Assembly (NCBI RefSeq): GCF_003337575.1
Contig: NZ_QPJM01000016.1
Coordinates: 1-64,000, forward strand
DNA from: Phyllobacterium bourgognense
Lineage (GTDB): Bacteria > Pseudomonadota > Alphaproteobacteria > Rhizobiales > Rhizobiaceae
Length of the DNA: 64,000 bases
Reading direction: 5' to 3'
In this document: positions 1,064-49,382 of the stretch, one piece after another
How positions within the stretch are numbered: position 1 is the stretch's first letter
Layout of the letters: each line of letters opens with the position of its first letter
Program-made: the position numbers and the translations under genes
Notes under the pieces: model-generated
What the model saw: only the letters and a program-made list of their open reading frames with translations
What the model was told of the DNA's origin: nothing
The model's database searches: none

Positions 1064-1945
1064 TCAGGCCGCTGCGGCCATCGCCTCGCGGATGGTTTCG
1101 CCGACGAGATGCGGGCTCTTGGCGATAATCACGCCGGCATCCTTCAGCGCACTGATCTTGTTCCCGGCATCGCTGGCAGCACTTTGTGCAAAGGCACCGG
1201 CATGGCCCATGCGGCGTTCCGTCGGCGCATAACGGCCGACTACGAGCCCGACGACCGGTATCTCCGGTTTTATCCCGGCAAGAAACTCCGCCAGCTCCTG
1301 CTCTTCCGATCCACCGATCTCGCCGATCGCGATCACACCGCGCGTATCCTGGTCAGCAAGGAAAAGCTCCATGCAGTCGCGCATACTCAAGCCGTGAATG
1401 GCGTCACCGCCAATGCCGACTGTTGTCGACTGGCCCAGTCCCGCCGCACTTACCTGGGCGATAACCTCGCTGGTCAGCGATGCCGATCGCGACAGGATGC
1501 CGACGTGGCCCTTTCGCTCGCTGCCCGTTGCCATCACGCCGATCTTGCAGACGCCCGGCGAAAGGATGCCCTGCGAGTTTGGACCGACGAGAACCGTCGA
1601 GCTCTGCTTCAGCGCCGCGCGCACGCGCAACATGTCCTGTACAGGCACCCGCTCCGTCAGAGCCACGACAAGCGGCATACCTGCCTCGATGGCCTCGATC
1701 ATTGCTGCGGCAGCGTTTTCCGGCGGCACGAAAATCATGCTGGCATTGGCGCCAGTCTCCTTCATCGCTTCTGCAACCTCGTCAAAGACCGGGAGGTTCA
1801 GATGGTAGGTTCCGCCCTTGCCGGGCGTGACGCCACCCACGATCCGGGTTCCATATTCCATCATGGCGGCCGAATAATGCGTTCCCGCCCAACCGGTCAT
1901 GCCCTGGCAGATCACACGGGTGTTCTGATCAACGAGAATGGTCAT
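1064..1945 (-). CDS. Divergent succinyl-CoA ligase alpha-like (NDP-forming acyl-CoA ligase alpha subunit)
   Basis: 293 residues with SucD architecture: an N-terminal CoA-binding Rossmann domain (VICQGMTGWAGTHYS, GGVTPGKGGTYH) and a C-terminal ligase domain with the phospho-histidine loop RRMGHAGA. It is clearly a paralogue of the 12360-13277 gene, but where SucD has GPNCPGI it reads GPNSQGI, and the following loop (VMATGSERKG) also differs. A different acid substrate is therefore possible; malate, oxalate or another small acid cannot be told apart by eye. The start at 1945 gives MTILVDQNTR and overlaps the beta-subunit stop by 4 bp (ATGA), so the two subunits are translationally coupled. Upstream in-frame codons encode non-homologous residues and were excluded. 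Confidence 0.85.
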   Translation of the reverse strand: MTILVDQNTRVICQGMTGWAGTHYSAAMMEYGTRIVGGVTPGKGGTYHLNLPVFDEVAEAMKETGANASMIFVPPENAAAAMIEAIEAGMPLVVALTERVPVQDMLRVRAALKQSSTVLVGPNSQGILSPGVCKIGVMATGSERKGHVGILSRSASLTSEVIAQVSAAGLGQSTTVGIGGDAIHGLSMRDCMELFLADQDTRGVIAIGEIGGSEEQELAEFLAGIKPEIPVVGLVVGRYAPTERRMGHAGAFAQSAASDAGNKISALKDAGVIIAKSPHLVGETIREAMAAAA

Positions 1946-3117
1946 GATCTTTCTCCATGCGCAGCGGAAACGGCGCGGTTGACTGCCGTCCACATGTCGG
2001 GACAGTCGATCACCTTGCAACCGAAATTGGCGAAGCGGAACCGGGCATATTCGGCATTGTTGCCCGCCAGACGAACGACGACGGGACACGAGCGGCCCGT
2101 GCGCCGCATCGCGATGCCAAGACCGTCGGCTATGGTATCGCAGGGCTGCATACCGCCCCCATGCACATTGACGAGAATCGAGCGCACGGCCGGATTGTTG
2201 AGGAGCAGCGTGAAACCATGCGCGACATCGAGGCTGGTGGCCGTCGTGCGGATATCCATGAAGTTTGCAGCGCTGCCATTGGCTGCACGCACCATGTCGA
2301 GCGTTGCGAGGCCAAGCCCTGCCCCATTAACCGCCAGACCGATATTGCCGTCCATCCGCAGGTAGTTGAGCCGGCGATTCTGCGCGACAAGCTCGATTTC
2401 ATCGCCGTCATGCTCTTCGCGCAGGGCCACCAGCTCGGGATGCCGGAACAGCGCGTTGTCGTCGATAATCATCTTGACGTCGATCGCAACGAACTTGCCC
2501 TCGTCTGTCACCACCAACGGGTTGAGCTCGATGAGCGTTGCATCGAGTTCGACGAAGGCGAGGCGCAACTGATCGACAAGCGAAGCAAAGGTGGAGTGAA
2601 GGCCGGAACCAAGGCCAAGACGCTGGGCCAGGCCAGTCACGGCCGCTTTCTCCAGTGCATCTCCGGTACCGAGAGAAAGCCTCTCCAGACGGGTTTCGCC
2701 CGATTGGAGCCGCTGCTCGATATCCTCGCTTCCTTCAGCACCGGCAAGGATGGCAATTTCGGCCCTTGCGGCATCAACGAGCAACGATAAATAGAGGCTG
2801 CGGACAGGACGAACCGCCGTTTCGATCAACACCCTGTTGACGCGGCAACCCGCGGGTCCCGTCTGTTCGGTTATGAGAGTGCGCCCCAGCATCGCGGCCG
2901 CAGCGGCTTCGACCTCGCCTGCAGATGAGACCAGACGAACGCCGCCTGCAAGGCCACGGCCTCCCGCCAGAACCTGCGATTTCACGGCGATCCTGTCCAC
3001 GCCCAAAGCCTCTGCTGCTTCGCGGGCCTCTCCGGGGGTCAGCGCCACCCGGCCTTCGGGGACATTGATGCCTCTGATGGATAAGAGTGCTTTCGACTGA
3101 AACTCATGAAGCTTCAT
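1942..3117 (-). CDS. Divergent succinyl-CoA ligase beta-like (NDP-forming acyl-CoA ligase beta subunit)
   Basis: 391 residues beginning MKLHEFQSKALL, with the ATP-grasp fold of SucC: KSQVLAGGRGLAGGVRL (nucleotide-binding loop), EQTGPAGCRVNRVLIE, ELNPLVVTDEG (metal ligands) and a C-terminal CoA-ligase domain. The second domain has lost the canonical NIFGG signature and reads NVHGGGMQPCD, whereas the second SucC in this window keeps [10 protein letters not shown]. The start at 3117 has an excellent GGGAGGAGG ribosome site; longer upstream reading is non-homologous. A GntR-type operator lies 78 bp upstream (3195-3211), so the pair has its own regulated promoter and need not depend on frc readthrough. 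It is likely an acyl-CoA synthetase for an acid handled by the neighbouring CoA-transferase and ThDP enzyme. Confidence 0.85.
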   Translation of the reverse strand: MKLHEFQSKALLSIRGINVPEGRVALTPGEAREAAEALGVDRIAVKSQVLAGGRGLAGGVRLVSSAGEVEAAAAAMLGRTLITEQTGPAGCRVNRVLIETAVRPVRSLYLSLLVDAARAEIAILAGAEGSEDIEQRLQSGETRLERLSLGTGDALEKAAVTGLAQRLGLGSGLHSTFASLVDQLRLAFVELDATLIELNPLVVTDEGKFVAIDVKMIIDDNALFRHPELVALREEHDGDEIELVAQNRRLNYLRMDGNIGLAVNGAGLGLATLDMVRAANGSAANFMDIRTTATSLDVAHGFTLLLNNPAVRSILVNVHGGGMQPCDTIADGLGIAMRRTGRSCPVVVRLAGNNAEYARFRFANFGCKVIDCPDMWTAVNRAVSAAHGERS

Positions 3118-3194
3118 AGCCGCCTCCTCCCTGAAGCGATTAGGCTGATGTGCGGCGGGGCTTGCGCCGTGAGCCGCACTTGTCGTCAAGCGAC

Positions 3195-3211
3195 TGGAAT
3201 ACATAATGCCA
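3195..3211. promoter_or_regulatory. Putative GntR operator 1 (upstream of SucCD-like pair)
   Basis: TGGAATACATAATGCCA, a 17-bp site with half-sites TGGAAT and ATGCCA around 5 bp. It is one of six copies of TGGNAT-N5-ATNCCA in this window, all upstream of genes in the acyl-CoA island. It sits 78 bp before the minus-strand start at 3117. Confidence 0.65.
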
Positions 3212-3299
3212 GTAAAAACACATGCTGTCAATCCGTAGCCGGATTAAGATTGCTGCACAAACAACATCACGCACGTTGTTTGAAAAGCAATGGAGGTCT

Positions 3300-3427
3300 G
3301 TTGATATCCATGTCAGGCGAGTCGAAAACGGTGGTTTTCGAGCCCCGGAGCGCAGCGTACATTTGGTACGTGAGCACCGGAGCGCAGAAAAACGCCGTTT
3401 GCAGGCCGCCATGGCGTGAATATCGAC
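3300..3427. repeat. Palindromic intergenic repeat, family A copy 1
   Basis: About 128 bp, nearly palindromic around GCGTACATTTGGTACGTG. It matches the copy at 47679-47808 in reverse orientation along almost its whole length, with about four in five positions identical by eye. It also shares the central 40-50 bp with copies at 17622-17737 and 52614-52741. It lies directly after the frc stop codon, between frc and the SucC-like gene, and could fold into a long hairpin in the transcript. Confidence 0.8.
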
Positions 3428-3432
3428 AGACC

Positions 3433-4710
3433 CTACTCGGCAGCGAGTTGCTGCGGAGTTCCGAGTGCACCGCTTTTCTGCAGTTCGTCGATCGTCCGCT
3501 CATCGAACCTAAGAACGTCGCGCAGGATTTCGTCCGTGTGCTCTCCCAAGAGCGGGGAACGCGTAACGTCTGTCGGACTGTCGGAAAGCTTGATGGGGTT
3601 ACCAACCGAAAGATAGTTGCCGCGCTCCGGATGCTCCACCTCGACGATCGTGCCCGTAGCTCTCAGCGATTGGTCTTCGGCGATCTCTTTCATCGACAGG
3701 ATAGGACCGCACGGGATGTCCCTGTCGTTGAGGATTGCCATCGCCTCGAACTTGTCCTTGGTCATCGTCCATTCCTCGATGCGGGCAAAAATCGCGTTGA
3801 GGCGCGGCAGACGGGCCACAGGTTTTGCATAATCGGGATGGGTCTTCCATTCCGGCTCGCCGATCACGTCGCAAATCGCCTCCCACACCGGCGCCTGGGT
3901 AATGAAGTAGATATAGGCGTTGGGGTCTGTCTCCCAGCCCTTGCACTTCAGGATGCGCCCGGGCTGGCCGCCGCCCGAGTCATTGCCGGCGCGGGGCACG
4001 CTCTCGCCGAACTCGATACCCTCGCCATATTGGCTGTATTCGTTCAACGGACCATGTGCCAGCCGTTGCTGGTCCCGCAGCTTGACGCGGCACAGATTGA
4101 GAACGCCATCCTGCATTGCTGCCGAGACTTTCTGGCCGCGCCCTGTCTTGGTGCGTTGGAAAAGCGCCGTGACAATGCCGAGGCAAAGATGCAGACCTGT
4201 GCCGGAATCGCCGATCTGTGCTCCGGTAACCAGCGGCAAACCATCGCGGAAGCCTGTCGTCGAGGCCGCACCGCCGGTGCATTGCGCGACGTTTTCGTAA
4301 ACCTTGCAGTCCTGATAGGGACCGGGGCCGAATCCCTTGATCGACGCAACGATCATTGCCGGATTGAGTTCCTGGACACGCTCCCACGTGAACCCCATGC
4401 GATCGAGCGCACCCGGAGCGAAATTCTCCACCAGCACATCGCAATTTTTGATCAGTTCTTCCAAAACGGCCTTCCCGCTCTGGTTCTTGGTATCGAGCGT
4501 GATCGAACGTTTGTTGTGATTGAGCATGGTGAAATAGAGGCTATCCACCTCGGGGACGTCGCGCAGCTGGCCGCGCGTAATATCACCAACTCCCGGGCGC
4601 TCGACCTTGATGACATCGGCACCAAACCAGGCAAGAAGCTGTGTGCATGTCGGCCCAGACTGAACATGGGTGAAATCCAGGATGCGAACACCCTCCAAAG
4701 CTTTCGTCAT
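3433..4710 (-). CDS. frc: Formyl-CoA:oxalate CoA-transferase
   Basis: 425 residues, the size of class III (CaiB/BaiF) formyl-CoA transferases. It converts formyl-CoA plus oxalate to oxalyl-CoA plus formate in the cytosol. Highly characteristic segments are [15 protein letters not shown] (conserved Gln near residue 17), [10 protein letters not shown] (nucleophilic Asp168, matching Asp169 of the Oxalobacter enzyme), [20 protein letters not shown] (the mobile glycine loop) and GIPCGP-like [12 protein letters not shown]. It resembles known Frc closely along its length, so the assignment is stronger than for a generic CaiB protein. It lies 95 bp downstream of the ThDP enzyme gene on the same strand, almost certainly in one operon. 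A palindromic repeat follows its stop. Confidence 0.93.
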
Positions 4711-4805
4711 TCTTTTCTTCCCTTTTTCTGGCGCGGAACTTGTTCCTTCGTTCTGCTCTCTGTCGATTGGAGCCGGCGGCCCTTATGACCGCCGGGCTTT
4801 TGTCG

Positions 4806-6560
4806 TTATTTGTACATCGTCTGGTTTTTGGTCCCGGGCGCATACTCATTCGGATCGACCCAGATATTGACGACCGCCGACCGGCCCGTCTTGGCTATGG
4901 CCTCGCGGGCGCGCAGCAGCGCCGGCTGAATTTCGGACGCTTCGCGAACCTCCTCGCCATGATTGCCGAGCATGTGCGCGAATTTGGAGAACTCGACGTC
5001 GCCAAGCTTGTTCCCGACATTGCCGCGTTCCTCGCCATATTTTGCAACCTGGCCATAACGGATCTGGTTCATCGAGGAGTTGTTGCCGATAACCGCAAGA
5101 TAAGGCGCGTTGAACCGGTCACAGGTTTCCATGTCGAAGGCCGTCATCGAGAACGCGCCGTCACCATAATAGCAAAGCACTTCCTTTTGCGGATGAGCCA
5201 GCTTGGCTCCAAGCGCGAAACCTGTCCCGACGCCCAGCGAACCAAGCGCACCGGGATCCATCCACTGGCCTGGATTGCGCGGGCGCACTGCCTGAGCCGA
5301 GATGGTCACCACGTCGCCGCCATCGCCGATGTAGATCGTATCCTCGCCGAGGAACTCGTTGAGCTCGTATGCAACACGGTAAGGATGGATCGGGCTTTGG
5401 TCCGACTTGAGAAGCGGCAGCACCTTCTCATAGGCGATGACTTCCTGCTGCTCGAGCGTCTTCATCCACTCGCGGCGTGCCTGGCGCTTGCCCTTGTCGA
5501 TCCGGGCGGATGCGGCCTGCAGGACCGCCGAAAGTATGGCGCCCGGATGGCCAACCAGACCCAGATCGATATCGCGGTTCTTGCCGACGGTGCGATAATC
5601 CTGATCGATCTGCACCAGGGTAAGGTCCTTGGAAATCCGCTTGCCGTAGCCCATGCGGAAATCGAACGGCGTGCCGATTACCACGATCACATCGGCATTG
5701 TTGAATGCAAAGCCGCGTGTGCGGTCGAAGTGATGAGGGTCACCAATCGGCAGTGTGCCGCGGCTTGCGCCGTTGAAGTAGCCGGGAATATCCAGCCCGC
5801 GTAGCAGCTCGACCGCAGCCTGCGTGCTGCCCGACGTGAAGACCTGCTGACCGAATAGAACTGCCGGGCGTTCGGCGTTGACCAGAACATCAGCCAGTTT
5901 TTCGATATCCGCGGGATCGCCGATTGAATATGTCGAAGCCCTGTATTTGCCCGGCTGCGGTATGACGGCCTTTTCAATAGGGATTTCGCGGTCCAGAACA
6001 TCACGCGGAATTTCCAGATAGGAAGGTCCGGACGCACCGGAGAAACACTCTCGCGCCGCCATCGAAATCATATCGGCAATACGTTCGGTCGATGAAACAC
6101 AGGCAGCAAACTTCGTGATCGGCGTCATCATATCGACATGCGGCAGATCCTGCAGTGAGCCCATCTTGTGCTGGGTCAAGGCGCCCTGCCCGCCAATATG
6201 AAGCACCGGGCTTTCCGAGCGGAACGCCGTGGCGATACCAGTCACCGCATTGGTGCAGCCTGGACCCGCCGTCGTGACAACGCAGCCCATCTTGCCTGTC
6301 TGGCGGGCATAACCATCGGCCGCATGAGCGGCGACCTGCTCATGGCGCACATCGATAATTCGGATGCCTTCATCGATGCATCCGTCGTAGATGTCGATGA
6401 TGTGGCCGCCGCAAAGCGTGAAGATAGTGTCGACGCCTTCATTCTTCAGCGCCCGCGCCACCAGATGGCCGCCGGACACCACGCTCCCGTCGCGTACCTT
6501 CCGCTTCAATGTGTCTTCAGCCGTTGATGTGGCCTTCTCAACCTTTGTGACGATTGTCAT
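4806..6560 (-). CDS. ThDP-dependent oxalyl-CoA decarboxylase / 2-hydroxyacyl-CoA lyase family enzyme
   Basis: 584 residues with the three ThDP-enzyme domains. The catalytic Glu74 lies in DVRHEQVAAHAADG; the central domain is about 200-350; the ThDP/Mg motif GDGAFSMTAFD...NN spans about 466-494. Position next to frc and near an OFA transporter suggests oxalyl-CoA decarboxylase (oxalyl-CoA to formyl-CoA and CO2). The sequence, however, lacks OXC hallmarks: where OXC has the Tyr-Glu pair in GDYEEMDQ this protein has GSLQDLPHVD, as in 2-hydroxyacyl-CoA lyases (GAFQEFPQVE in human HACL1), and its C terminus ends GTKNQTMYK. It may therefore cleave or form 2-hydroxyacyl-CoA via formyl-CoA. The start at 6560 lies just after an AGGAGGAAAG ribosome site. 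An operator lies 227 bp upstream. Confidence 0.75.
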   Translation of the reverse strand: MTIVTKVEKATSTAEDTLKRKVRDGSVVSGGHLVARALKNEGVDTIFTLCGGHIIDIYDGCIDEGIRIIDVRHEQVAAHAADGYARQTGKMGCVVTTAGPGCTNAVTGIATAFRSESPVLHIGGQGALTQHKMGSLQDLPHVDMMTPITKFAACVSSTERIADMISMAARECFSGASGPSYLEIPRDVLDREIPIEKAVIPQPGKYRASTYSIGDPADIEKLADVLVNAERPAVLFGQQVFTSGSTQAAVELLRGLDIPGYFNGASRGTLPIGDPHHFDRTRGFAFNNADVIVVIGTPFDFRMGYGKRISKDLTLVQIDQDYRTVGKNRDIDLGLVGHPGAILSAVLQAASARIDKGKRQARREWMKTLEQQEVIAYEKVLPLLKSDQSPIHPYRVAYELNEFLGEDTIYIGDGGDVVTISAQAVRPRNPGQWMDPGALGSLGVGTGFALGAKLAHPQKEVLCYYGDGAFSMTAFDMETCDRFNAPYLAVIGNNSSMNQIRYGQVAKYGEERGNVGNKLGDVEFSKFAHMLGNHGEEVREASEIQPALLRAREAIAKTGRSAVVNIWVDPNEYAPGTKNQTMYK

Positions 6561-7304: not shown

Positions 7305-7363
7305 GTATGTCTCGATCAGCGCATGGCATTATAGCTACATAAAAGGCGTAGAAAGGGATGAAC

Positions 7364-8656
7364 ATGACTCAAGCGGTAAAAGAGGAGTTCCGCTCGCGGC
7401 AGGTCAGCGACGGATTCAGATGGATACAGTTGGCAATTGGCGTGATCTGTATGGTCATGATCGCCAACCTGCAATATGGCTGGACGTTCTTTGTTCCGGA
7501 AATTACCAAACAATTCGGTTGGGGGCGTGCGGAAATTCAATGGGCTTTCACGCTCTTCGTCCTGTTCGAAACATGGCTGGTTCCCATCGAGGGCTGGTTC
7601 GTCGATAAATACGGCCCGAAGATCGTCATCATTTTCGGCGGGGTGCTCTGCGCCATCGGGTGGGTGATCAATTCACAAGCCGAAACCCTGTTTGCATTCT
7701 ACATCGGCCAGATTGTTGCCGGTATCGGCGCGGGCGCGGTCTACGGTACCTGCGTGGGCAATGCATTGAAATGGTTCCCCGATCGGCGCGGCCTTGCAGC
7801 GGGCATCACGGCAGCCGGATTTGGCGCGGGATCCGCACTGACGGTCTGGCCCATCCAGGCCACGATCGCGAACTATGGCTTCCAGAGTGCTTTCCTGACC
7901 TTCGGCATCGGCCAAGGCGTTGTTATCGTTATCCTTGCGTTCTTCCTGCTGGCCCCGAAGCCAGGTCAGGTGCCGGAACCGACAAACAAGGGCCCGATCA
8001 TCCAGAGTCGCCGGCAGTACTTGCCGTCTGAAGTGGTCAAGCACCCTATTTTCTGGCTCATGTATGCCATGTTCGTTGCGGTGGGTGCCGGTGGCCTCGT
8101 TGTAACGGCCAATCTTGCACCGATGGCCAAGGATTTCGGTGTTGCGGATATTCCGATGTGGCTGGGCATACCGGCTCTTACACTGGCTGCTACCCTCGAC
8201 CGTCTTCTCAATGGCCTGACGCGACCCTTCTGCGGCTGGGTGTCGGACAAGATAGGGCGCGAGAACACCATGTTCATCGCCTTCGGTATTGAGGCGATCG
8301 GTATCTACATGCTCTATCTCTACGCGGGCAATCCGGTGATGTTCGTCATCCTCAGCGGTTTGGTGTTCTTTGCCTGGGGCGAAATCTATTCTCTGTTCCC
8401 GTCAACCTGCACCGATACATTCGGCTCCAAATTTGCAGCCACCAATGCGGGACTGCTCTACACCGCCAAAGGTACAGCAGCGCTTCTCGTCCCATTTGGC
8501 ACCGCGATGGCGGCAGATGGCAACTGGAACTCGGTGTTTATCATCGGCGTCGTCCTGAATGGCGCTGCAGCCCTTCTGGCTCTGTTCGTACTCAAGCCAT
8601 GGCGTGCGGGCATTATTCGCAGGACGGAAGAAAACGTTCTGCAGCCTGCCCAGTAA
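7364..8656 (+). CDS. oxlT: OFA-family MFS transporter, probable oxalate/formate antiporter
   Basis: About 430 residues with a 12-helix MFS pattern. It begins with a short cytoplasmic tail, then FRWIQLAIGVICMVMIANLQ (TM1) and the OFA-like QYGWTFFVPEITKQFGW loop, and ends with a short charged tail. OFA proteins exchange oxalate for formate, or import related mono- and dicarboxylates, at the inner membrane. Family plus neighbouring frc make oxalate/formate the best guess; acetate or glycolate-type substrates remain possible. GAAAGGG at 7351-7357 suits the ATG at 7364 better than the ATG at 7358, which abuts it. A regulon operator lies upstream and a strong hairpin follows (8673-8699). Confidence 0.8.
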   Translation: MTQAVKEEFRSRQVSDGFRWIQLAIGVICMVMIANLQYGWTFFVPEITKQFGWGRAEIQWAFTLFVLFETWLVPIEGWFVDKYGPKIVIIFGGVLCAIGWVINSQAETLFAFYIGQIVAGIGAGAVYGTCVGNALKWFPDRRGLAAGITAAGFGAGSALTVWPIQATIANYGFQSAFLTFGIGQGVVIVILAFFLLAPKPGQVPEPTNKGPIIQSRRQYLPSEVVKHPIFWLMYAMFVAVGAGGLVVTANLAPMAKDFGVADIPMWLGIPALTLAATLDRLLNGLTRPFCGWVSDKIGRENTMFIAFGIEAIGIYMLYLYAGNPVMFVILSGLVFFAWGEIYSLFPSTCTDTFGSKFAATNAGLLYTAKGTAALLVPFGTAMAADGNWNSVFIIGVVLNGAAALLALFVLKPWRAGIIRRTEENVLQPAQ

Positions 8657-8792: not shown

Positions 8793-8895
8793 ACGTGGGC
8801 GGCAAAGACAACTCTACCAGTACGCCCCGCTGGCAAACCAGGCCACATCAATGCCGCTGTCACCGGGAGTGCACGCGGCCATCACGGAGGAAATC

Positions 8896-11022
8896 ATGCT
8901 CGATAAAACCGTTGTCCGTAACGTACTGGAAGCGGCGCGGGCCGAAGGCCGCCAGGCACTCACCGCACCCGAAGGCAAGCTTATTTGCGATGCCTATGGC
9001 ATAGCAGTTCCGCAGGAGGGCGTTGCCATAAGCGCCGGGGAAGCCGCCTCGCTTGCATCGTCCATGGGCTTTCCGGTGGTCATGAAGATCGTCTCTCCGG
9101 ATATCCTGCACAAGACCGAAGCAGGCGGCGTTATCGTCGGCGTCAAATCTGCCGAGGAAGCCAGGGCCAGTTTCGACAAGATCATCGCCAATGCGCAAGC
9201 CTATAAGGCCGATGCGGAAATCGTCGGCGTGCAGGTCCAGCAAATGCTGACCGGCGGCCTCGAAGTCATTATCGGAGCGGTAACCGACGACAGCTTCGGC
9301 AAGCTCGTTGCCTTTGGCCTTGGCGGCGTTCTCGTCGAAGTCCTGAAGGACATCACCTTCCGTCTTGCACCGGTGACGCACGACGAAGCCCTGTCGATGC
9401 TCGACAGTATCCAGGCAGCGGAAATGTTGAAGGGCGTGCGCGGCGGTGAGCCGGTCAATCGTATCGCGCTTGCCGATATGATTGTGCAGGTCTCCAAGCT
9501 TGTCGACGACTATCCGGAAATCTCCGAACTCGATCTCAACCCGGTTTTCGCCACCAGGGAAGGCGCGATCGCCGCCGACGTGCGCATCGTCATCGATTAC
9601 GATCAGGCCAAGCCCCGTCACCGTCCGAGCCAGGACGAAATCCTCAAATCCATGAACCGCATCATGCGCCCGAAGGCGGTAGCCGTGATCGGCGCTTCGG
9701 CAGAGGATGGCAAGATCGGCAATTCGGTGATGAAGAACCTCATCAACGGCGGCTACAAGGGGCAGATCTATCCGATCCATCCGAAGGCCGAAGAGATCCT
9801 CGGCTACAAGACCTACAAGAGCGTCAAGGATGTGCCGGGCGATATCGATACGGCTGTCTTTGCCATTCCCGCCAAACTGGTTGCCGGCGCTCTTGCCGAA
9901 TGCGGCGAGAAGAAAATTCCCGGCGCAGTCCTCATCCCCTCGGGCTTCGCTGAAGCCGGAGAACCGGAACTGCAGGACGAAATCGTCAAGATCGGCCGCA
10001 AATACAATATCCGCCTGATGGGCCCGAACATCTACGGCTTCTACTACACGCCGGAAAATCTCTGCGCGACATTCTGCACGGCCTACGACGTCAAGGGCTC
10101 GGCGGCATTGTCGTCACAGTCCGGCGGCATCGGTATGGCGATCATCGGCTTCTCCCGCTCGGCCAAGATGGGCGTGTCGGCGATTGTCGGTCTCGGCAAC
10201 AAGTCGGATATCGACGAGGACGACCTGCTCACCTTCTTCGAGCAGGATGACAATACGCGCATCATCGCCCAGCATCTCGAGGATCTGAAAGACGGCCGTG
10301 CCTTTGCCGAAGCGGCAAAACGCGTCTCCCAGAAGAAGCCTATCGTCGTCCTCAAAGCGGGGCGCACCTCCGCCGGTGCCAAAGCGGCCTCGTCCCATAC
10401 GGGCGCGCTTGCCGGTAACGACAAGATCTACGAGGACGTGTTCAAGCAGGTCGGCGTCATCCGCGCCCGCTCGCTGCGGCAGCTCCTCGAATTCGCCCGC
10501 GGCATCCCGGTCATGCCAACGCCGAAGGGAGAAAATGTCGTCATCATCACCGGCGCGGGAGGCTCGGGCGTGCTTCTCTCCGATGCCTGCGTCGACAATG
10601 GCCTCAGTCTCATGGCAATGCCGGACGATCTGGATGCGGCCTTCCGCAAGTTCATTCCGCCCTTCGGTGCCGCGGGCAATCCCGTCGACATCACCGGCGG
10701 CGAACCGCCCCTCACCTACAAGAATACGGTCAAACTCGGCCTCGAGGACGATCGCATCCACGCGCTGATCCTCGGTTACTGGCACACGATCGTGACCCCG
10801 CCGATGGTCTTTGCCAAGCTCATGGTCGAGGTGAAGGAAGAGATGGCAGCCAGGGGCATCGAGAAGCCGATGGTTGCGTCGCTTGCCGGCGATGTCGAAG
10901 TCGAAGAGGCTGCCGAATATCTCTATCAGCATGGCATCCCCGCCTATGCCTATTCGACCGAGCTACCAGTCGAGGTGCTGGGAGCGAAGTACAAGTGGGC
11001 TAGAGGTGCAGGTCTGCTCTAG
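8896..11022 (+). CDS. NDP-forming acyl-CoA synthetase (acetate-CoA ligase family)
   Basis: 708 residues in one chain, ordered ATP-grasp (about 1-230), CoA-binding (about 255-350) and succinyl-CoA-ligase-like domains (about 360-700). Visible signatures are PVVMKIVSPDILHKTEAGGV, SELDLNPVF, AVIGASAEDGKIGNS, SSQSGGIGMAI and AASSHTGALAG, the last carrying the phospho-histidine. The family makes acyl-CoA from an acid, CoA and ATP/GTP; substrates include acetate, propionate and aryl acids. The start at 8896 has GGAGG 5 nt upstream; the longer in-frame reading from 8851 adds a non-conserved leader. It lies downstream of operator 5 and 138 bp before sucC, probably one unit. It may supply the CoA thioester that primes the CoA-transferase cycle. 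Confidence 0.88.
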   Translation: MLDKTVVRNVLEAARAEGRQALTAPEGKLICDAYGIAVPQEGVAISAGEAASLASSMGFPVVMKIVSPDILHKTEAGGVIVGVKSAEEARASFDKIIANAQAYKADAEIVGVQVQQMLTGGLEVIIGAVTDDSFGKLVAFGLGGVLVEVLKDITFRLAPVTHDEALSMLDSIQAAEMLKGVRGGEPVNRIALADMIVQVSKLVDDYPEISELDLNPVFATREGAIAADVRIVIDYDQAKPRHRPSQDEILKSMNRIMRPKAVAVIGASAEDGKIGNSVMKNLINGGYKGQIYPIHPKAEEILGYKTYKSVKDVPGDIDTAVFAIPAKLVAGALAECGEKKIPGAVLIPSGFAEAGEPELQDEIVKIGRKYNIRLMGPNIYGFYYTPENLCATFCTAYDVKGSAALSSQSGGIGMAIIGFSRSAKMGVSAIVGLGNKSDIDEDDLLTFFEQDDNTRIIAQHLEDLKDGRAFAEAAKRVSQKKPIVVLKAGRTSAGAKAASSHTGALAGNDKIYEDVFKQVGVIRARSLRQLLEFARGIPVMPTPKGENVVIITGAGGSGVLLSDACVDNGLSLMAMPDDLDAAFRKFIPPFGAAGNPVDITGGEPPLTYKNTVKLGLEDDRIHALILGYWHTIVTPPMVFAKLMVEVKEEMAARGIEKPMVASLAGDVEVEEAAEYLYQHGIPAYAYSTELPVEVLGAKYKWARGAGLL

Positions 11023-11160: not shown

Positions 11161-12360
11161 ATGCATATTCATGAGTATCAGGCCAAGGGTGTACTGAAGT
11201 CCTTTGGTGTGCCTGTCCCGGAAGGCTATCTGGCTGTGGACATCGAAGGGGCCGGCGAAATGGCTGCAAGGCTTCCTGGTCCGGTCTTTGTCGTCAAATC
11301 GCAAATTCATGCCGGCGGTCGCGGCAAGGGTTCGTTCAAGGAACTGGGCGAAGGTGCAAAGGGCGGTGTCCGCCTTGCCCGTTCGATTGCGGAAGTTCGC
11401 GAACATGCCGCTGAGATGCTCGGCAATACATTGGTGACGATCCAGACCGGCCCTTCAGGCAAACAGGTCAACCGTCTCTATGTCGAGGACGGATCGCAGA
11501 TCGAGAAGGAATTCTACCTCTCGCTTCTTGTCGACCGCGCAACCAGCCGCGTTTCGTTCGTTGTCTCCACCGAAGGCGGCATGGACATCGAAACCATCGC
11601 GCACGACACGCCGGAAAAAATCCTGACGTTCTCGGTCGATCCCGCAACGGGTATCTTGCCCCATCATGGCCGCGCCGTTGCCAAGGCGCTGGAACTTGAC
11701 GGCGATCTCGCCAAACAGGCGCATACACTCGTTGCAAAACTCTATACCGCGTTCACTGCCAAAGACATGGAGATGCTCGAGATCAATCCGCTGATCGTCT
11801 CGAAGGACGGCCAGCTGAAATGCCTCGACGCCAAGGTCAGCTTCGACTCCAACGCCCTCGCCCGTCATCTCGACATTTTCGAAATGCGTGATGAGAGCGA
11901 AGAGGACGCCAAGGAGATAGAAGCGTCGAAATACGACCTCTCCTATATCACGCTCGACGGCAGCATCGGCTGCATGGTCAACGGCGCCGGCCTTGCCATG
12001 GCGACAATGGACATCATCAAGTTCTACGGCGCAGAACCGGCCAACTTTCTTGATGTCGGCGGTGGCGCCACCGCGGAGAAGGTTGCCGCGGCATTCAAGA
12101 TCATCACTGCCGATCCGAATGTAAAAGGCATTCTCATCAACATCTTCGGCGGCATCATGCGCTGCGACGTGATCGCGGAAGGCGTGATCACGGCCGTCAA
12201 GGAAGTGGGGCTGACGGTACCGCTCGTTGTTCGCCTTGAAGGCACCAATGTGAATGAGGGCAAGAAGATCATCGCAGCATCGGGGTTGAACGTCATCCCG
12301 GCTGACGATCTCGACGATGCCGCCCAGAAGATCGTCAATGCAGTCGGAGGCTTGAACTGA
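11161..12360 (+). CDS. sucC: Succinate-CoA ligase (ADP-forming) beta subunit
   Basis: 399 residues, the standard SucC length. It starts [20 protein letters not shown] and carries the ATP-grasp loop [36 protein letters not shown] (metal ligands), [17 protein letters not shown] and [15 protein letters not shown]. It joins succinate and CoA at the expense of ATP, or the reverse in the TCA cycle, as an alpha2beta2-type complex with SucD. AAGGAGG lies about 10 nt before the ATG, and it overlaps sucD by one base. Its place beside an acyl-CoA synthetase and a carboxylate transporter, rather than in an mdh-sucCD-sucAB operon, suggests a second, catabolism-linked copy. I cannot see whether another exists elsewhere. 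Confidence 0.92.
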
Positions 12361-13277
12361 TGTCGATACTGATCAACAAGAACACCCGTCTCCTCTGTCA
12401 GGGCTTTACCGGCAAGACCGGCACCTTCCACAGCGAACAGGCGATCAAATATGGGACCCACATGGTCGGCGGCACCTCCCCCGGCAAAGGCGGAACCTCA
12501 CATCTCGGTCTGCCCGTCTTCGACACGGTAGCGGAAGCACGTGAAGCGACCGGAGCTGACGCCTCGGTTATTTACGTGCCGCCTTTCGGCGCGGCCGACG
12601 CTATCTGTGAGGCGATCCAGGCGGAAATTCCGCTGATCGTCTGTATTACCGAAGGTATTCCGGTTCTCGACATGCAGCGTGTCAAACGAGCATTGAGCGG
12701 TTCGAAATCGCGACTGATTGGCCCCAACTGCCCGGGCATCATGACTGTCGATGAATGCAAGATCGGGATCATGCCCGGCTCCATCTTCCGCAAAGGGTCT
12801 GTCGGCATCGTGTCGCGCTCGGGTACGCTGACCTATGAGGCAGTATTCCAGACCTCGCAACAGGGTCTTGGCCAGACCACCGCAGTCGGCATCGGTGGCG
12901 ATCCCATCAAGGGCACCGAGTTCATCGATGTGCTGGAGATGTTCCTCGCCGATCCCACGACGGAATCAATCGTGATGATCGGAGAAATCGGCGGCTCGGC
13001 AGAAGAAGAAGCCGCGCAATTCCTCGCCGATGAGGCAAGACGCGGACGCTCGAAGCCAACGGTCGGGTTCATTGCGGGTCGCACGGCACCTCCGGGACGG
13101 CGCATGGGCCATGCCGGCGCCATCATCTCCGGCGGCAAAGGTGGCGCAGAAGATAAAATCAGCGCCATGGAAGCGGCTGGCATCCGGATCGCCTCTACAC
13201 CGGCGCGTCTTGGCACCACGCTGGTCGAGCTTCTGAATGAGCGCTCGGTGTCTCCACGCCTGTCGGCAACCGGTTGA
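12360..13277 (+). CDS. sucD: Succinate-CoA ligase (ADP-forming) alpha subunit
   Basis: 305 residues. CoA-binding domain: [49 protein letters not shown] is the canonical SucD loop, and the active-site histidine is in [12 protein letters not shown]. The C terminus carries an extra ten or so residues ([16 protein letters not shown]) beyond the usual end. The start overlaps the sucC stop (TGATG at 12358-12362), giving coupled translation. Because it keeps canonical residues lost in the 1064-1945 paralogue, succinate (or a close analogue) is the likely acid. No clear terminator follows before the peptidase gene at 13456. Confidence 0.92.
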
Positions 13278-18904: not shown

Positions 18905-20308
18905 TTAAATTTTGGTGTAGTGACGCGAAATCGCGTCGCTACATGTGACCAATCCAGCAGGCTGCAATTCAGGCAAGTATCGAGCACCATGCGACGCGGC
19001 AGCTTTATCAAGTCCGCTCTTCATCGGCTTGCCGGCGACGTAAACCTCTGAAACACAACGATCATCGCCCATGGTCTGGAGGATGAACAGCTCCTCCGCC
19101 AAGGTCGTTGCAGTCCGCATCCGCAGTTCCATCGCCGGCTTGGCACGGCTGTCGAGAATGGTGATATCGGCATCTGCCCCCGCCCGCAGCGAACCGATGC
19201 GATCCTCAAGATCTAGTGCGCGGGCATTGCCAAGCGTCATCATGTAGTAGGAAGCGAATTGCGAGAGGCGCTGTCCCTGTACATGCAAGACCTTGTAGGC
19301 CTCGCTCATCGTCTCCAGCATGGAGAAGCTGGTCCCGCCACCGACATCGGTCGCGACCGAAGTGCGTGCACCAAGCTCTTTGAACCGACCCTGGTCAAAC
19401 AAGCCGCTGCCGAGGAACAGATTGGAGGTCGGGCAGAAAACCGCGACCGATCTCGCCTCGGCCAGAGCCGAAATTTCCCGGTCCGAAAGGAAGATGCAGT
19501 GGCCAAGCAGCGTCTTGGATCCGAGCAGATCATAGTTCGCATAGATGTCGGTATAGTCCTTCGCCGAAGGATAGAGCGAAGTTGCATAGGCAATTTCGTC
19601 TTTGTTTTCAGATAGATGCGTCTGCACGTAACATTCGGGATGCTCGCGCACCAAAGCACGGCTCATGTCCATCTGCTCCGGCGTTGAGGTGATGGCGAAG
19701 CGCGGGCTGATCGCGTAATGTGCGCGGCCGCGGCCATGCCACTTGGCTATCAACGCTTTGGTATCATCGTAGCCTGTCTGCGGTGTATCGCGCAGCGCCT
19801 CGGGCGCGTTGCGATCCATCATCACCTTGCCGCCGATCATCAGCATATTACGCTTCTCAGCGGCAGCAAAATAGGCATCGACGCTTGTCCGGTGAACCGA
19901 ACAATAGGCAGCGGCTGTTGTCGTGCCGTTGCGCAACAGTTCGTCCATGAAGCGGCTTGCGATGAAATCAGCATGCGCTGTGGACGAGAATTTCTGCTCT
20001 TCGACGAAGATATAGGTATTCAACCACTCCAGCAGCTGCGCGCCATAGGAGGCGATCGCCTGCGTCTGCGGGAAATGCAAATGGGTGTCAATGAAGCCAG
20101 GCAGGATCAAATGGGGCCGGTGATCGACGATCTGCGCCTGCGGACCCGCAACCAACGCCAGAGCCGCGTATTCGCCAGCTTCAACAACCTTGCCGTTCTC
20201 GACCAGCACCGCGCCATCCTCGAAATAGCTGTAGGCCGACTGATCATCGATACTCTTCGGCTCGTCGACAAAAGTCAGCACGCGGCCGCGCAGAAGCAAT
20301 TTGCTCAT
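18905..20308 (-). CDS. guaD: Guanine deaminase
   Basis: 467 residues of the amidohydrolase superfamily. Metal ligands are visible in PGFIDTHLHFPQTQ (HxH), the later His in VQTHLSEN and LLGHCIFL, and the catalytic Asp in TDVGGGTSFSML. The guanine deaminase signature PGFIDTHLHFPQ is clear. It converts guanine to xanthine and ammonia in the cytosol, feeding xanthine dehydrogenase. It overlaps the puuD stop by 4 bp (ATGA), so it is translationally coupled to urate oxidase and belongs to the purine catabolism operon. Confidence 0.93.
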   Translation of the reverse strand: MSKLLLRGRVLTFVDEPKSIDDQSAYSYFEDGAVLVENGKVVEAGEYAALALVAGPQAQIVDHRPHLILPGFIDTHLHFPQTQAIASYGAQLLEWLNTYIFVEEQKFSSTAHADFIASRFMDELLRNGTTTAAAYCSVHRTSVDAYFAAAEKRNMLMIGGKVMMDRNAPEALRDTPQTGYDDTKALIAKWHGRGRAHYAISPRFAITSTPEQMDMSRALVREHPECYVQTHLSENKDEIAYATSLYPSAKDYTDIYANYDLLGSKTLLGHCIFLSDREISALAEARSVAVFCPTSNLFLGSGLFDQGRFKELGARTSVATDVGGGTSFSMLETMSEAYKVLHVQGQRLSQFASYYMMTLGNARALDLEDRIGSLRAGADADITILDSRAKPAMELRMRTATTLAEELFILQTMGDDRCVSEVYVAGKPMKSGLDKAAASHGARYLPELQPAGLVTCSDAISRHYTKI

Positions 20309-21546
20309 TGGACTGTTCCTCCCTGAACTGTGGTCTCATACCAGCTGGCGAGCAGCCGGCGCTCCTCGTCGGTAATGCCGCTGACATTCGCCGGCGGCAT
20401 CGCATGTGAGCGCCCGGCCTGCAGATAAATCTCGCGGGCATGCGCCGCGATCTCGCTGTCGGTTTCAAGCACGACACCCTTGGGCGGCACGATGATACCC
20501 TCCCAGCCGGGTTCCTTGGCGTGGCACATCGAGCAGCGTCCGAGGATAGCGTCCTTCACTTTGGGAAAGGCTGCAGCGGAAATGAATGGCTGCTGGATGG
20601 CGGAGACCTTCTCCTGTGCGCCTTCGCCGGAAAGGATTCTCGGTACAGTCGACAGCCACATGATGATGACGAAGAGGATCGCGGTAACCAGCCACGTCCA
20701 CGTCGGTTCACCCTTGCGCGCGTGGCGGGTGTTGAACCAATGGCGGATGGTGACGCCCATCAAGAACACCAGCGAGGCAATGATCCAGTTGTACTTCGTC
20801 CCGAATGCCAGGGGATAGTGGTTCGACAACATCAGGAACAGCACTGGCAGGGTCAGATAATTGTTGTGGGTCGAGCGTTGCTTGGCCTGCTTGCCCAGCG
20901 CAGGATCCGGGACCTTGCCCGCGATCAGGTCGGCAACGACCTTCTTCTGGTTCGGGATGATGATCATAAACACGTTGGCGGACATGATCGTGGCTGTAAA
21001 CGCGCCAAGATGCAGAAACGCCGCACGCCCGGTAAAAAGCTGCGTATAGCCCCATGCCATTCCCACCAGCACGAAATAGAGCAGCACCATCAACTGCGTG
21101 TCGTTTCTGCCGAGCGGTGATTTGCAGATCGCGTCGTAGACGATCCAGCCGCCAAAAATCGAAGCGAGCGAAATCGCGATAGCCACTGGCCGTGACACGT
21201 CGAGTACATGCGGATCGATCAAGTACAGATCAGCGCCTGCATAGTAGACGATGCAAAGCATGGCGAAGCCCGAAAGCCACGTCGCATAGGATTCCCATTT
21301 GAACCATGTCAAATGTTCGGGCATCTGCTCAGGCGCCACCAGATATTTCTGGATGTGATAAAAACCGCCGCCGTGGACCTGCCACTCCTCGCCGTGGGCC
21401 CCGGCCGGAAGGTCTGGACGCTGACGCAAGCCGAGGTCAAGCGCCACGAAATAAAAGGACGAGCCGATCCAGGCAATGCCGGTGATCACATGTAACCAGC
21501 GAACGGCGAAGTTCATCCAGTCCCAGGCAATAGCGTATTCGTACAT
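20305..21546 (-). CDS. puuD: Membrane-bound urate hydroxylase/oxidase with cytochrome c domain
   Basis: 413 residues from the ATG at 21546 (MYEYAIAWDWMNFAVRWLHV). About eight membrane helices come first, with HVITGIAWIGSSFYFVALD and KVVADLIAGKVPDPALGKQ as PuuD markers. A C-terminal periplasmic cytochrome c domain carries the heme motif CSMCH (about 330-335) and an NVSGITDEERRLLASW end. PuuD oxidises urate to 5-hydroxyisourate and passes electrons to the respiratory chain, in place of soluble O2-dependent uricase. It is divergent from the LysR gene (135 bp gap) and coupled to guaD. Upstream in-frame ATGs are less likely because they precede the hydrophobic start. Confidence 0.92.
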   Translation of the reverse strand: MYEYAIAWDWMNFAVRWLHVITGIAWIGSSFYFVALDLGLRQRPDLPAGAHGEEWQVHGGGFYHIQKYLVAPEQMPEHLTWFKWESYATWLSGFAMLCIVYYAGADLYLIDPHVLDVSRPVAIAISLASIFGGWIVYDAICKSPLGRNDTQLMVLLYFVLVGMAWGYTQLFTGRAAFLHLGAFTATIMSANVFMIIIPNQKKVVADLIAGKVPDPALGKQAKQRSTHNNYLTLPVLFLMLSNHYPLAFGTKYNWIIASLVFLMGVTIRHWFNTRHARKGEPTWTWLVTAILFVIIMWLSTVPRILSGEGAQEKVSAIQQPFISAAAFPKVKDAILGRCSMCHAKEPGWEGIIVPPKGVVLETDSEIAAHAREIYLQAGRSHAMPPANVSGITDEERRLLASWYETTVQGGTVQ

Positions 21547-21680
21547 CCGGCTCTCCCTTATATCGCAGGGAGTATGTGCCAAAGCCTATGCTCATGTGAA
21601 ACACCGTAATCGACCCATCTCTTTCAAAAAAATCTTTAAAATGCTAGATCATCAGACAGTGTAAGGCTTCGAGTGAAACA

Positions 21681-22595
21681 ATGTCGTACCTTGATAACCT
21701 TCGTGTTTTCGTTCGTGTCGTCGAACTTGGAAACCTCTCTGCCGCCGGACGCGACCAACGCGCTTCTCCGGCTGTTGCCAGCAATCGGATCAAGGAACTC
21801 GAGCGGCATCTTGGTGTGCGTCTCTTCAATCGTACAACGCGCAAACTGACGCCGACCGAGCACGGCCGCGTATTCTACGAAGGCGCGGTCAAGATCATCG
21901 AGGCCATCAATGAGGCCGAAGCAGCCATTGCCGATCTGTCGAAAAAGCCCAAAGGTGCAATTCGCATCACCGCACCGCTTGGCATTGGCCGGCGCCTGAT
22001 CGCATCCGGCATTCCGGAGTTCCACGACAAGTACCCGGATATCGAGGTGCGGCTGCGATTGTCAGATCACAACGTCGATATCATGAGCGAGGGTGTCGAT
22101 GTTGCCTTCAAGCTCGGCATACTCGAGGACTCCAATTTGCGCATGCGCGGCATCATGAATTGCGAAAGGGTAATCTGCGCGTCGCCCGATTACCTGGAAA
22201 GGCGCGGTACACCCTTAACGCCCGACGATCTGATAGCCGGACATCATGATTGCCTGCTGCTACGCTATCCGGGTTCCAAGGAATATTTCTGGACGCTGCA
22301 GATGCCGGAAGGTACGCGCAAGCTGGAAGTCAGCGGTCCTTATGATTCCGACGATGGCGATGTCCTGACACAATGGGCGCTTGAGGGTCGCGGTATTATC
22401 AACAAGCCGCTGTTTGAAGTGAAAGGCCATTTGAATGACGGAACGCTGAAAGCGATCCTCGAAGACACGCCGCCAGCTAGTATCCAGCTCGCAGCAATCT
22501 ACCCACACAAGCGTTTCCAGGATCCGAAGGTCCGCCTGATGATCGATTTCATGACCGAGCGCTGTCAGCGCCTGGTCAGTACAATGTTGGAATGA
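21681..22595 (+). CDS. LysR-family transcriptional regulator, probable purine-catabolism regulator
   Basis: 304 residues. The N-terminal winged helix (about 3-62: NLRVFVRVVELGNLSAAGRD, RIKELERHLGVRLFNRTTRK) precedes a type 2 periplasmic-binding-like effector domain (about 90-295). It is divergent from puuD-guaD across 135 bp and convergent with xdhC, the usual place for a LysR activator of purine breakdown. The effector could be urate, xanthine or another intermediate; this is inferred from position only. Confidence 0.88.
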   Translation: MSYLDNLRVFVRVVELGNLSAAGRDQRASPAVASNRIKELERHLGVRLFNRTTRKLTPTEHGRVFYEGAVKIIEAINEAEAAIADLSKKPKGAIRITAPLGIGRRLIASGIPEFHDKYPDIEVRLRLSDHNVDIMSEGVDVAFKLGILEDSNLRMRGIMNCERVICASPDYLERRGTPLTPDDLIAGHHDCLLLRYPGSKEYFWTLQMPEGTRKLEVSGPYDSDDGDVLTQWALEGRGIINKPLFEVKGHLNDGTLKAILEDTPPASIQLAAIYPHKRFQDPKVRLMIDFMTERCQRLVSTMLE

Positions 22596-22600
22596 ACGGT

Positions 22601-23458
22601 TCAGGCGTTGACTCGCCTGCGTTCTTTAGGTGCAGCAGCTGGCGAAGGGCGATAATTCAACGCCGAAACCATGATTTCAGCGGCCGCCAGCGCCGCAATG
22701 ACAGTCGGACGTTTGTCCTTCACCGCGGTCCTGCCGACAGGACAAACCAGCCTGTCGAAAAACTCCGGACGACCCAACTCACGTGTCAACCAGCTGCGAA
22801 ACGTTGCGCGTTTCGTCTTCGACCCAATCATGCCAACGTAGGACGCATCATTCCTGCCCAGGGCTTCAGCCGTAATCAAGAAATCCAGTGCATGATCGTG
22901 GGTGAGGATAACGAATGCACTTCCCGCTGGCGCATCACGGACAACCGCTTCAGGCATGGCTGTCAGGCAGGTTTCGATGCCGGGGACCTGCGTGGCGGAA
23001 AGTTCCTCTTCGCGTGTGTCGACCAATATTGTTCGCAGCGGGACCAGTGAAAGCGCCATGGCCAGTGCATCGCCGACATGACCGGCACCAAATACATAAA
23101 CATGCGGCCGCTGGGCCATCTCAAGGTCAACCTTCTCGATCAAAGTCTTGGCCACAGTTCGATCAACACGCTTGAAGCCCAATGAGACGCGGCCACCGCA
23201 GCATTGGCCGATCTCCGGACCGAGCGGGATCGTTATTTCATTCATTTGGGCGCCGCTTTCGAGCGCCCTGCGTGCGTGATCAATTGCCATGAATTCGAGC
23301 TGCCCACCGCCTATGGTGCCAAAAATGCAATCCGCTGCCACCAGCATCCAGGCTCCGGCTTCGCGCGGAGTGGAGCCGTCTGCGGCTCTCACCTCAGCGA
23401 GAACGGCATGCTTGCGTCGATTCAGAAAGTCCCGGATATCGTCGCGATTCGTCGGCAT
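22601..23458 (-). CDS. xdhC: Xanthine dehydrogenase accessory protein (molybdenum cofactor insertion)
   Basis: 285 residues. The N-terminal XdhC/CoxI domain (ADGSTPREAGAWMLVA, FGTIGGGQLEFMA) and C-terminal Rossmann domain (VYVFGAGHVGDALAMAL, ASYVGMIGSKTKRATF) are typical. It binds and sulphurates Moco for insertion into XdhB. It is the last gene of the xdhABC operon, starting 6 bp after xdhB. Its 3' end lies 5 bp from the convergent LysR stop, so the two transcripts must overlap or end inside genes. Confidence 0.93.
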   Translation of the reverse strand: MPTNRDDIRDFLNRRKHAVLAEVRAADGSTPREAGAWMLVAADCIFGTIGGGQLEFMAIDHARRALESGAQMNEITIPLGPEIGQCCGGRVSLGFKRVDRTVAKTLIEKVDLEMAQRPHVYVFGAGHVGDALAMALSLVPLRTILVDTREEELSATQVPGIETCLTAMPEAVVRDAPAGSAFVILTHDHALDFLITAEALGRNDASYVGMIGSKTKRATFRSWLTRELGRPEFFDRLVCPVGRTAVKDKRPTVIAALAAAEIMVSALNYRPSPAAAPKERRRVNA

Positions 23459-23464
23459 GGGATT

Positions 23465-25801: not shown

Positions 25802-25811
25802 TGCGCGCTCC

Positions 25812-27290: not shown

Positions 27291-27296
27291 TTGAGG

Positions 27297-27668
27297 TCAA
27301 CTCCCGCGATAGGTTGAATAGCCGAAGGGCGCGACGAGCAGCGGCACATGATAGTGAACGTTCTCGTCATCGATGCCGAAGCGGATCGGGACCACATCGA
27401 GAAACGGCGTCTGGCCATTCGCAGGCTGGCCGCCGAAGTATTCGCCTACATGGAACCGAAGCTCGTAAGCACCCGAGCGCATATCAGCGCCGGTCAATAA
27501 CGGTTTGTTGCAACGTCCATCTTCGTTGGTGCGTGTGCTGTGCAAAGGCTGAAGGCAGTCGCCATCGACGCGAAAGAGATCGATCCGTAAGCTGGCGGCG
27601 GGCTTTCCGCTGGCCGTATCGAGCACGTGGGTCGTCAGGCGGCCGGCAACTTCATCGTGAAGGCTCAT
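27297..27668 (-). CDS. uraH: 5-hydroxyisourate hydrolase (transthyretin-like)
   Basis: 123 residues. The signature N-terminal [15 protein letters not shown] and C-terminal YRGS tetrapeptide define HIU hydrolases as distinct from vertebrate transthyretin; the conserved active-site His lies in HYHVPLL. It hydrolyses 5-hydroxyisourate, the PuuD product, to OHCU. It appears to be the first gene of the uraH-xdhABC operon. It is divergent from the puuE-uraD fusion across a 169-bp promoter region in which I see no clear operator. Confidence 0.93.
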
Positions 27669-27837
27669 GTGTATCCTCCTCCCGCGGAGTACTTCAGTTT
27701 CCGTTGCTCAATGTGCCCCTTGGCATCAGTCCCGGGTAGGCAACGCCTGATTGCAAGACTTTCAAAATTTTCTGGGGGAATGCCTCATCCATTAATTGGG
27801 TATTGAGGGTGGAATAGCGATTTGAGGAGGACCCACC

Positions 27838-29259: not shown

Positions 29260-29262
29260 GAA

Positions 29263-47611: not shown

Positions 47612-47678
47612 ATTCCGCAACTTTCTGGTGCCAGCCTATACTTAGCGACCTTTTTTTCGAATGTGAACCCTAGGGTGC

Positions 47679-47808
47679 GTCGATATTCACACCATGACGG
47701 TCTGCAAACGGTATTTTTCTGCGATCCGGTGCTCTCGTACTTTGAGTACACTCCGCTCCGGTTCTCGAAAATCACCGTTTTCGCCTCGTCATGATGGCGA
47801 ATCTCAAC
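47679..47808. repeat. Palindromic intergenic repeat, family A copy 3
   Basis: About 130 bp, matching copy 1 (3300-3427) in opposite orientation from GTCGATATTCAC to its far end. Central arms TGCTCTCGTACTTTGAGTACA are less symmetric than in copies 2 and 4. It occupies most of the space between the pterin dehydratase gene (-) and fhcB (-). Confidence 0.8.
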
Positions 47809-47833
47809 ACACCTGCCTGCAAAAAATTTCAGA

Positions 47834-48223: not shown

Positions 48224-48251
48224 GGGCGATACTCCACTTCTTCACTGATGT

Positions 48252-48316: not shown

Positions 48317-48386
48317 CTTGCACCTCGGTCGAAAGACGATATCATAGTGCAGGGCCCGATTTTTGAGATTGTGTAAAGAATAGCAA

Positions 48387-49349: not shown

Positions 49350-49382
49350 ATTCAGGGCCCATTACCATAAGGAGCGGAAACA

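Follow-up and report, generated by a model that had tools for sequence, protein, structure and literature searches.

A probable second family of oxalyl-CoA decarboxylases, encoded beside frc in Phyllobacterium bourgognense and other bacteria

Oxalotrophs are commonly sought in genomes through frc and oxc (PMC13184526), the genes for formyl-CoA:oxalate CoA-transferase (Frc) and oxalyl-CoA decarboxylase (OXC). A survey of 1396 OXC sequences reported that they all join a single closed network at 50% identity, and described OXC as highly conserved (PMC7190790). Active-site residues of the O. formigenes enzyme have been listed as Y120, E121, Y483, S553, and R555 (PMC10192776), and the enzyme of M. 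extorquens (MeOXC), in which three of these sites were changed together with A415C, had less than 0.2% of OXC efficiency (PMC8411744). Regarding the 2-hydroxyacyl-CoA lyases (HACL), the acid/base residue of the actinobacterial enzyme AcHACL was described as Glu493, and the E493A mutant as retaining about a tenth of its rate; according to the same report, the decarboxylation step of OXC requires no such proton transfer (PMC8760513).

The window in the present study, which is the whole stretch of DNA that was analyzed, comprises 64,000 nucleotides of Phyllobacterium bourgognense (positions 1 to 64,000 of contig NZ_QPJM01000016.1). The gene of interest occupies positions 4806..6560 on the minus strand and encodes a ThDP-dependent protein of 584 aa from an ATG start; the original prediction, made from the sequence of the window, had given exactly this open reading frame, to which our analysis added the strand. 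The three ThDP-enzyme Pfam domains (TPP_enzyme N, M, and C) all exceeded their cut-offs, and these domains and the activating Glu place the protein in the superfamily of ThDP-dependent decarboxylases. We infer with high confidence that it represents a second, non-orthologous family of oxalyl-CoA decarboxylases, which is most likely an unrecognized kind of this enzyme distantly related to the textbook one.

The prediction that the protein is not a classical OXC was backed by profile scores, active-site residues, and phylogeny. It was 24-26% identical to the three solved OXCs, those of O. formigenes (OfOXC), E. coli (EcOXC/YfdU), and M. extorquens, and scored 202 bits against TIGR03254, the cut-off of which is 739.4; no protein elsewhere in the same genome exceeded the TIGR03254 cut-off. 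Since the family is approximately 25% identical to OXC, it should fall outside the 50%-identity network described above. The classical motifs SGSSERE and GDYEEMDQ were seen in the M. extorquens and O. formigenes chains, with SGSSDRA and GDYEELDQ as the E. coli variants, and GGQGALTQHK and GSLQDLPHVD, which had been named as their counterparts, were both found in the window protein, as was the C-terminal GTKNQTMYK that had been noted with them. The activating Glu (E56 of OfOXC) is kept in the family of the window protein, whereas 0 of the 5 listed OfOXC active-site residues are: the first three positions have L, Q, and N, the fourth mostly N (A or R in 5 of 19 rows), and the fifth T. Considering the absence of these residues and the loss of efficiency in the MeOXC variant, another arrangement must do the work. 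Phylogeny had been proposed as a check against verified OXCs, and the family stood apart from the OXC clade rather than clustering within it: in a tree of 43 proteins, it formed one clade (100/100) and OXC another (100/100), the sister of the latter was the HACL/HACS group, and a joint clade of the family, its sister paralogues, and OXC was rejected (93 log units worse, p-AU 6e-65). The two families share the ThDP superfamily and fold, the Frc operon partner, the activating Glu, and the proposed reaction, whereas they differ in clade, in the five residues that are not kept, and in the C-terminal tail.

The window protein belongs to a conserved family ending in QTMYK. The protein of P. trifolii is 100% identical to it, and that of P. 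zundukense, which is 99.5% identical and encoded between oxlT and frc, is recorded only as a "thiamine pyrophosphate-binding protein". The following positions, all on the minus strand, were located by alignment. Glu74 (6339..6341), the ThDP-activating glutamate, corresponds to E56 of OfOXC and E65 of AcHACL and is invariant. The loop C50-G-G-H53 (6402..6413) replaces GIP of OXC and is matched by Q41-G-G43-H in AcHACL. In L136-Q137-D138 (6147..6155), the first two residues correspond to Y120-E121 of OfOXC and to the active-site pair L127-Q128 of AcHACL. N498-Q499-I500-R501 (5058..5069), which according to the alignment and the structural model is a predicted helix start, has N498 aligned with Y483 of OfOXC and I500 with the acid/base E493 of AcHACL. 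The C-terminal signature YAPGTKNQTMYK (4809..4844) is the presumed active-site lid, and its N579 and T581 align with S553 and R555 of OfOXC. Both L136-Q137-D138 and Q580-T581-M582-Y583 were invariant when the window protein was aligned with those of 58 of the 80 related loci, and this invariance excludes a chance resemblance.

Among solved structures, AcHACL was the best sequence match (34% identity over 508 positions). If the window protein were a 2-hydroxyacyl-CoA lyase, Frc would use formyl-CoA to activate a small 2-hydroxy acid (glycolate, lactate, or 2-hydroxyisobutyrate), and the enzyme would cleave the product to formyl-CoA and to an aldehyde or ketone that feeds C1 metabolism; this reading draws on AcHACL being the closest solved relative, on the Leu-Gln pair and GGH loop common to both proteins, and on the predicted helix starting where AcHACL bears E493. 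The earlier claim that the protein is closer to HACL holds for the loop and the Leu-Gln pair, but not for the acid/base residue, the position of which is Ile500 in all 19 tree rows and all 59 aligned rows. An Ile at this position fits a decarboxylase, but proves nothing alone because of the residual rate of the AcHACL E493A mutant. The family further differs from AcHACL in a Cys at Q41 and in its linkage to frc and oxalate genes; the Frc, antiporter, PanE-type, and formate-THF ligase neighbors fit oxalate, and the exchange between the family and classical OXC within shared Frc lineages, described below, suggests the same reaction. Accordingly ranked, a lyase is a very unlikely reading of this gene. 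The actinobacterial HACL model NF058623 gave 341 bits versus a 600-bit cut-off, and AcHACL itself had a long branch and an unsure place in the 43-protein tree. HACL/HACS enzymes such as DhcHACS (8VZJ) have the ThDP fold and a Gln at the E121 position in common with the window family, but group with OXC (100/100) and away from it.

Predicted structure was less discriminating. The AlphaFold model of the window protein had a mean pLDDT of 79 and a helix at 498-508; with regard to the large C-terminal lid domain of AcHACL, its last residues, 581-584, were modeled with pLDDT <50, and the AcHACL chain compared lacked its tail. In Foldseek and VIA-align 2 comparisons, HACL, OXC, glyoxylate carboligase, and benzaldehyde lyase were all close together. 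Neither OXC nor HACL was singled out from the other ThDP enzymes, and the fold therefore leaves function undecided.

The window protein was below the cut-off for all of the 25 best NCBIfam models shown among the 53 that matched. The best score was obtained with PRK05858 "acetolactate synthase" (433 bits), which could be taken to indicate an acetolactate-synthase-like paralogue located beside frc by chance; however, this score is below the cut-off of 587, TIGR00118 acetolactate synthase gave 302 bits versus a cut-off of 538, frc linkage recurs in Proteobacteria, Acidobacteriota, and Streptomyces, and the window family and OXC are nearly mutually exclusive, such that a chance neighbor is scarcely credible. 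Paralogues at three loci (L154 4011-5669, L155 3983-5641, and L156 4061-5719), approximately 41% identical, formed the sister group of the window family in the tree (100/100), but differ from it in the helix and tail motifs. Their genomes had no Frc above the cut-off; the genes near that of L154 encode a dGTPase, an MBL-fold hydrolase, and TatD rather than Frc, and two L156 neighbors had no NCBIfam match.

The near-textbook Frc and OFA transporter that had been noted beside the gene both scored well above their NCBIfam cut-offs. The frc gene (3433..4710, minus strand) lies 95 bp downstream (TIGR03253, 734 bits; cut-off 504), and Q17, D169, and the GGGQPG loop, known from the solved structures of the O. 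formigenes and E. coli enzymes, are all present in its product. The oxalate/formate MFS antiporter gene of the OxlT type (7358..8656, plus strand) is divergent (TIGR04259, 624 bits; cut-off 335) and is named oxlT in the corresponding P. zundukense region. A scan of named genomes gave 594 candidate stretches, 582 of them coding for relatives, and the loci studied were the best 80 of at least 582. In 72 of these 80 closest loci, Frc followed immediately downstream in the same orientation, with the matches 16-488 nt apart; it was split or cut off in 4 more (L037, L041, L081, and L088), while no Frc was found in the locus DNA examined at 4 (L021, L024, L033, and L051). An operon with Frc is thus a feature that the window family has in common with classical OXC, and the count applies to close relatives because the loci are the closest 80 of at least 582. 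Hosts among them include Phyllobacterium, Labrys, Paraburkholderia, Caballeronia, Cupriavidus, and Filomicrobium, as well as a SAR116 genome, a Spongiihabitans MAG, and two Acidobacteriota MAGs. In Streptomyces fungicidicus, the order is enzyme (67% identity), frc, CoA ligase, and OFA transporter.

Neighboring genes of 81 loci were clustered at 40% identity and 60% length, and each cluster was named by the best models of one representative; some other clusters consisted of antisense or spurious ORFs and were not counted. The clusters comprised GntR regulators (52 loci), ADP-forming CoA ligase (33), oxalate/formate antiporter (29), FAH-family proteins (29), formyltransferase-like proteins (26), PanE/ApbA-type reductase (23), TctA transporters (22), and formate-THF ligase (19). 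PanE2 of M. extorquens has been reported to interconvert glyoxylate and oxalyl-CoA, and ApbA2 of C. necator probably does so too (PMC7486775). This set of neighbors points to oxalate and formate, with the PanE/ApbA-type reductases assigned by type only.

In the window, the ADP-forming acyl-CoA ligase (acetate--CoA ligase family) is encoded at 8851..11022 on the plus strand. It adjoins the module in Phyllobacterium, Burkholderiaceae, and Streptomyces, scores far below its family-model cut-offs, and might, as a guess, supply the first oxalyl- or formyl-CoA that sets the CoA cycle going. Two succinate/malate-CoA ligase-like pairs, detected by profile search, flank the module, one at 1064..3123 on the minus strand (alpha 1064-1969, beta 1942-3123) and a second at 11161..13277 on the plus strand (beta 11161-12360, alpha 12360-13277). 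The second adjoins PEP carboxylase in P. zundukense, and a CoA ligase pair beside PEP carboxylase is an arrangement as in serine-cycle clusters.

The distribution of the two families was compared among genomes that carry Frc. Among 289 genomes of the class of the window genome, Frc was matched in 32 and exceeded the cut-off in 27, which had OXC only (12), the window family only (14), both (0), or neither (1). In the P. kururiensis family, represented by 200 genomes, Frc was present in 109, and the corresponding numbers were 81, 22, 3, and 3. Judging from Phyllobacterium and P. kururiensis, the two samples correspond to Alphaproteobacteria and Burkholderiaceae. Every genome counted with the window family had Frc (14/14 and 25/25). 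Fisher tests of the exclusion gave 7e-7 in the class sample and 8e-17 in the P. kururiensis family sample, values that overstate because the genomes are related, and the Frc tree is therefore the better test. The class sample had 17 window-family matches among the 289 genomes, of which the 14 at ≥62% identity were kept and G043, G108, and G193 (41-43% identity, no Frc above the cut-off) were left out. Regarding TIGR03254, 18 were matched in this sample and the six below the cut-off were left out (G022, G156, G193, G236, G243, and G265), with G156 having the window family plus one HACL-like protein below the TIGR03254 cut-off; in the P. kururiensis family sample, 84 of 85 matches were above it. 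Both the window family and classical OXC were found in G334, G427, and G307, and, among the named genomes, also in G301. Altogether, 24 of the 26 window-family genomes searched were without classical OXC, absence here meaning no match above the curated cut-off in mostly draft genomes. Neither enzyme exceeded the limits in the Frc genomes G202, G360, G371, and G450, the last of which has a partial OXC (701 bits); G202 (L157), G371 (L158), and G360 may represent a third route or a loss.

The Frc tree, a quick tree with SH-aLRT support only, was built from 119 rows, or 107 without identical ones, with some genomes counted twice via overlapping loci. Its 107 proteins (84 beside the window family and 23 beside OXC) needed 9 partner changes, 8 of which were forced by well-supported branches; shuffled labels required 21, and the partner label is thus also clustered on the tree. 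The Frc of Hansschlegelia, which lies beside the window family, was, for instance, sister to one that has classical OXC as its neighbor. Such recurrent switching within a single Frc lineage would be difficult to account for if the two enzymes had different functions. The alternative raised in the original prediction, a distinct OXC lineage, is strongly favored by this near exclusion on the same Frc partner and by the repeated swaps, and further by the oxalate/formate neighbors and the oxalate-degrading strains that have no OXC above the cut-off. The window family appears to replace textbook OXC in many oxalate-eating bacteria.

Concerning these strains, B. kururiensis LMG19447, B. phenoliruptrix LMG22037, and B. 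graminis LMG18924 were reported to degrade oxalate (Kost et al., 2014; PMC3886118), and P. graminis C4D1M (= LMG 18924), P. kururiensis KP23 (= LMG 19447), and C. grimmiae LMG27580 (= R27) were reported as oxalate-positive in 2026 in ISME J (PMC13184526). The genomes of P. kururiensis LMG 19447, P. phenoliruptrix LMG 22037, P. graminis C4D1M, and C. grimmiae R27 (loci L017, L039, L047, and L056) carry the window family and frc, and classical OXC above the cut-off was found in none of the four. Their oxalate phenotypes are associated with the window family by gene presence and are not tied to the window-family gene. OxdC was considered as a source of these phenotypes and was rejected, with no match in the four strains at E 1e-10 or E 1e-60; it exceeded the cut-off in 2 of the 26 window-family genomes, both Phyllobacterium (G289 and G290). 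In the literature searched, which covered titles, the starts of abstracts, and passages, with subscription journals mostly outside, no assay or knock-out of any window-family member was found and no such family was described.

A passage of PMC13184526 states that several oxalotrophs "lacked oxc", which is ascribed there to pathways independent of FRC and OXC; the strains meant may differ from the four in the present study. A second OXC family may explain oxalate degradation in some bacteria without the known gene. If our reading is correct, it would be a direct answer to the oxalate-degrading Burkholderia relatives in that report, and oxalate degradation would have been under-counted in soil, plant-associated, and marine bacteria, behind the name "thiamine pyrophosphate-binding protein".

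For an oxalyl-CoA decarboxylase in this setting, oxalate would enter via the OFA antiporter, and Frc would transfer CoA from formyl-CoA to oxalate. Oxalyl-CoA would then be attacked by the ThDP ylide, which Glu74 activates in the enzyme, with the release of CO2, and protonation of the carbanion/enamine would yield formyl-CoA, to be released and recycled by Frc. Formate would exit by antiport, be oxidized, or, in some relatives, be assimilated through formate-THF ligase. In place of the classical Tyr-Glu/Tyr/Ser network, the enzyme would rely on Q137, the helix at N498-R501, and the C-terminal QTMYK; the candidate residues Q137, N498, Q499, R501, Q580, and T581 are a guess from invariance. This would represent a second active-site solution to oxalyl-CoA decarboxylation, differing where MeOXC was changed into a carboligase.

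Alternatively, Frc and the enzyme could consume oxalate by another reaction, such as one that ligates the carbanion derived from oxalyl-CoA to formaldehyde or glyoxylate. Carboligation was reported to be slow in MeOXC and the main reaction of the engineered variant (PMC8411744), three of the positions changed in that variant also differ in the window protein, and H4MPT C1 genes are present in the same window. On the other hand, a synthase using formyl-CoA or its precursor would presumably deprive Frc of its CoA donor, and the chance that oxalate is consumed in this manner is slight indeed. It would also be a long shot that the decarboxylase, besides releasing formyl-CoA, naturally transfers the carbanion to formaldehyde or glyoxylate to form glycolyl-CoA or a C3 unit, as engineered MeOXC4 does; if so, methylotroph-like hosts, this one included, would assimilate oxalate straight into their C1/C2 metabolism.

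The original prediction had also connected a lyase releasing formaldehyde to a C1 island in the window. This link found no support because no annotated neighbor calls for a 2-hydroxy acid or aldehyde product, and formate is a likelier C1 link than formaldehyde. The island corresponds to tetrahydromethanopterin C1 genes above their cut-offs at 43169-52601, which encode formylmethanofuran dehydrogenase A and C subunits, the formyltransferase FhcD, and methenyl-H4MPT cyclohydrolase; by eye, additional genes up to about 62 kb also seem related. Purine catabolism genes above their cut-offs (guanine deaminase, xanthine dehydrogenase, allantoinase PuuE, and allantoicase) are located at 18905-30282 and are a possible glyoxylate source near the oxalate module.

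HACL-like ThDP enzymes adjoin Frc-like CoA-transferases below the Frc cut-off at two other loci, L149 (ThDP enzyme 1984-3645, transferase 3670-5058) and L150 (2025-3731 and 3712-4941). These ThDP enzymes have the motif FQE and are without the Tyr-Glu pair, Tyr483, or Ser553. Since that of L149 passes PRK09259 "oxalyl-CoA decarboxylase" (574.5 versus 557 bits) despite its HACL-like features, it may be misnamed as an oxalyl-CoA decarboxylase.
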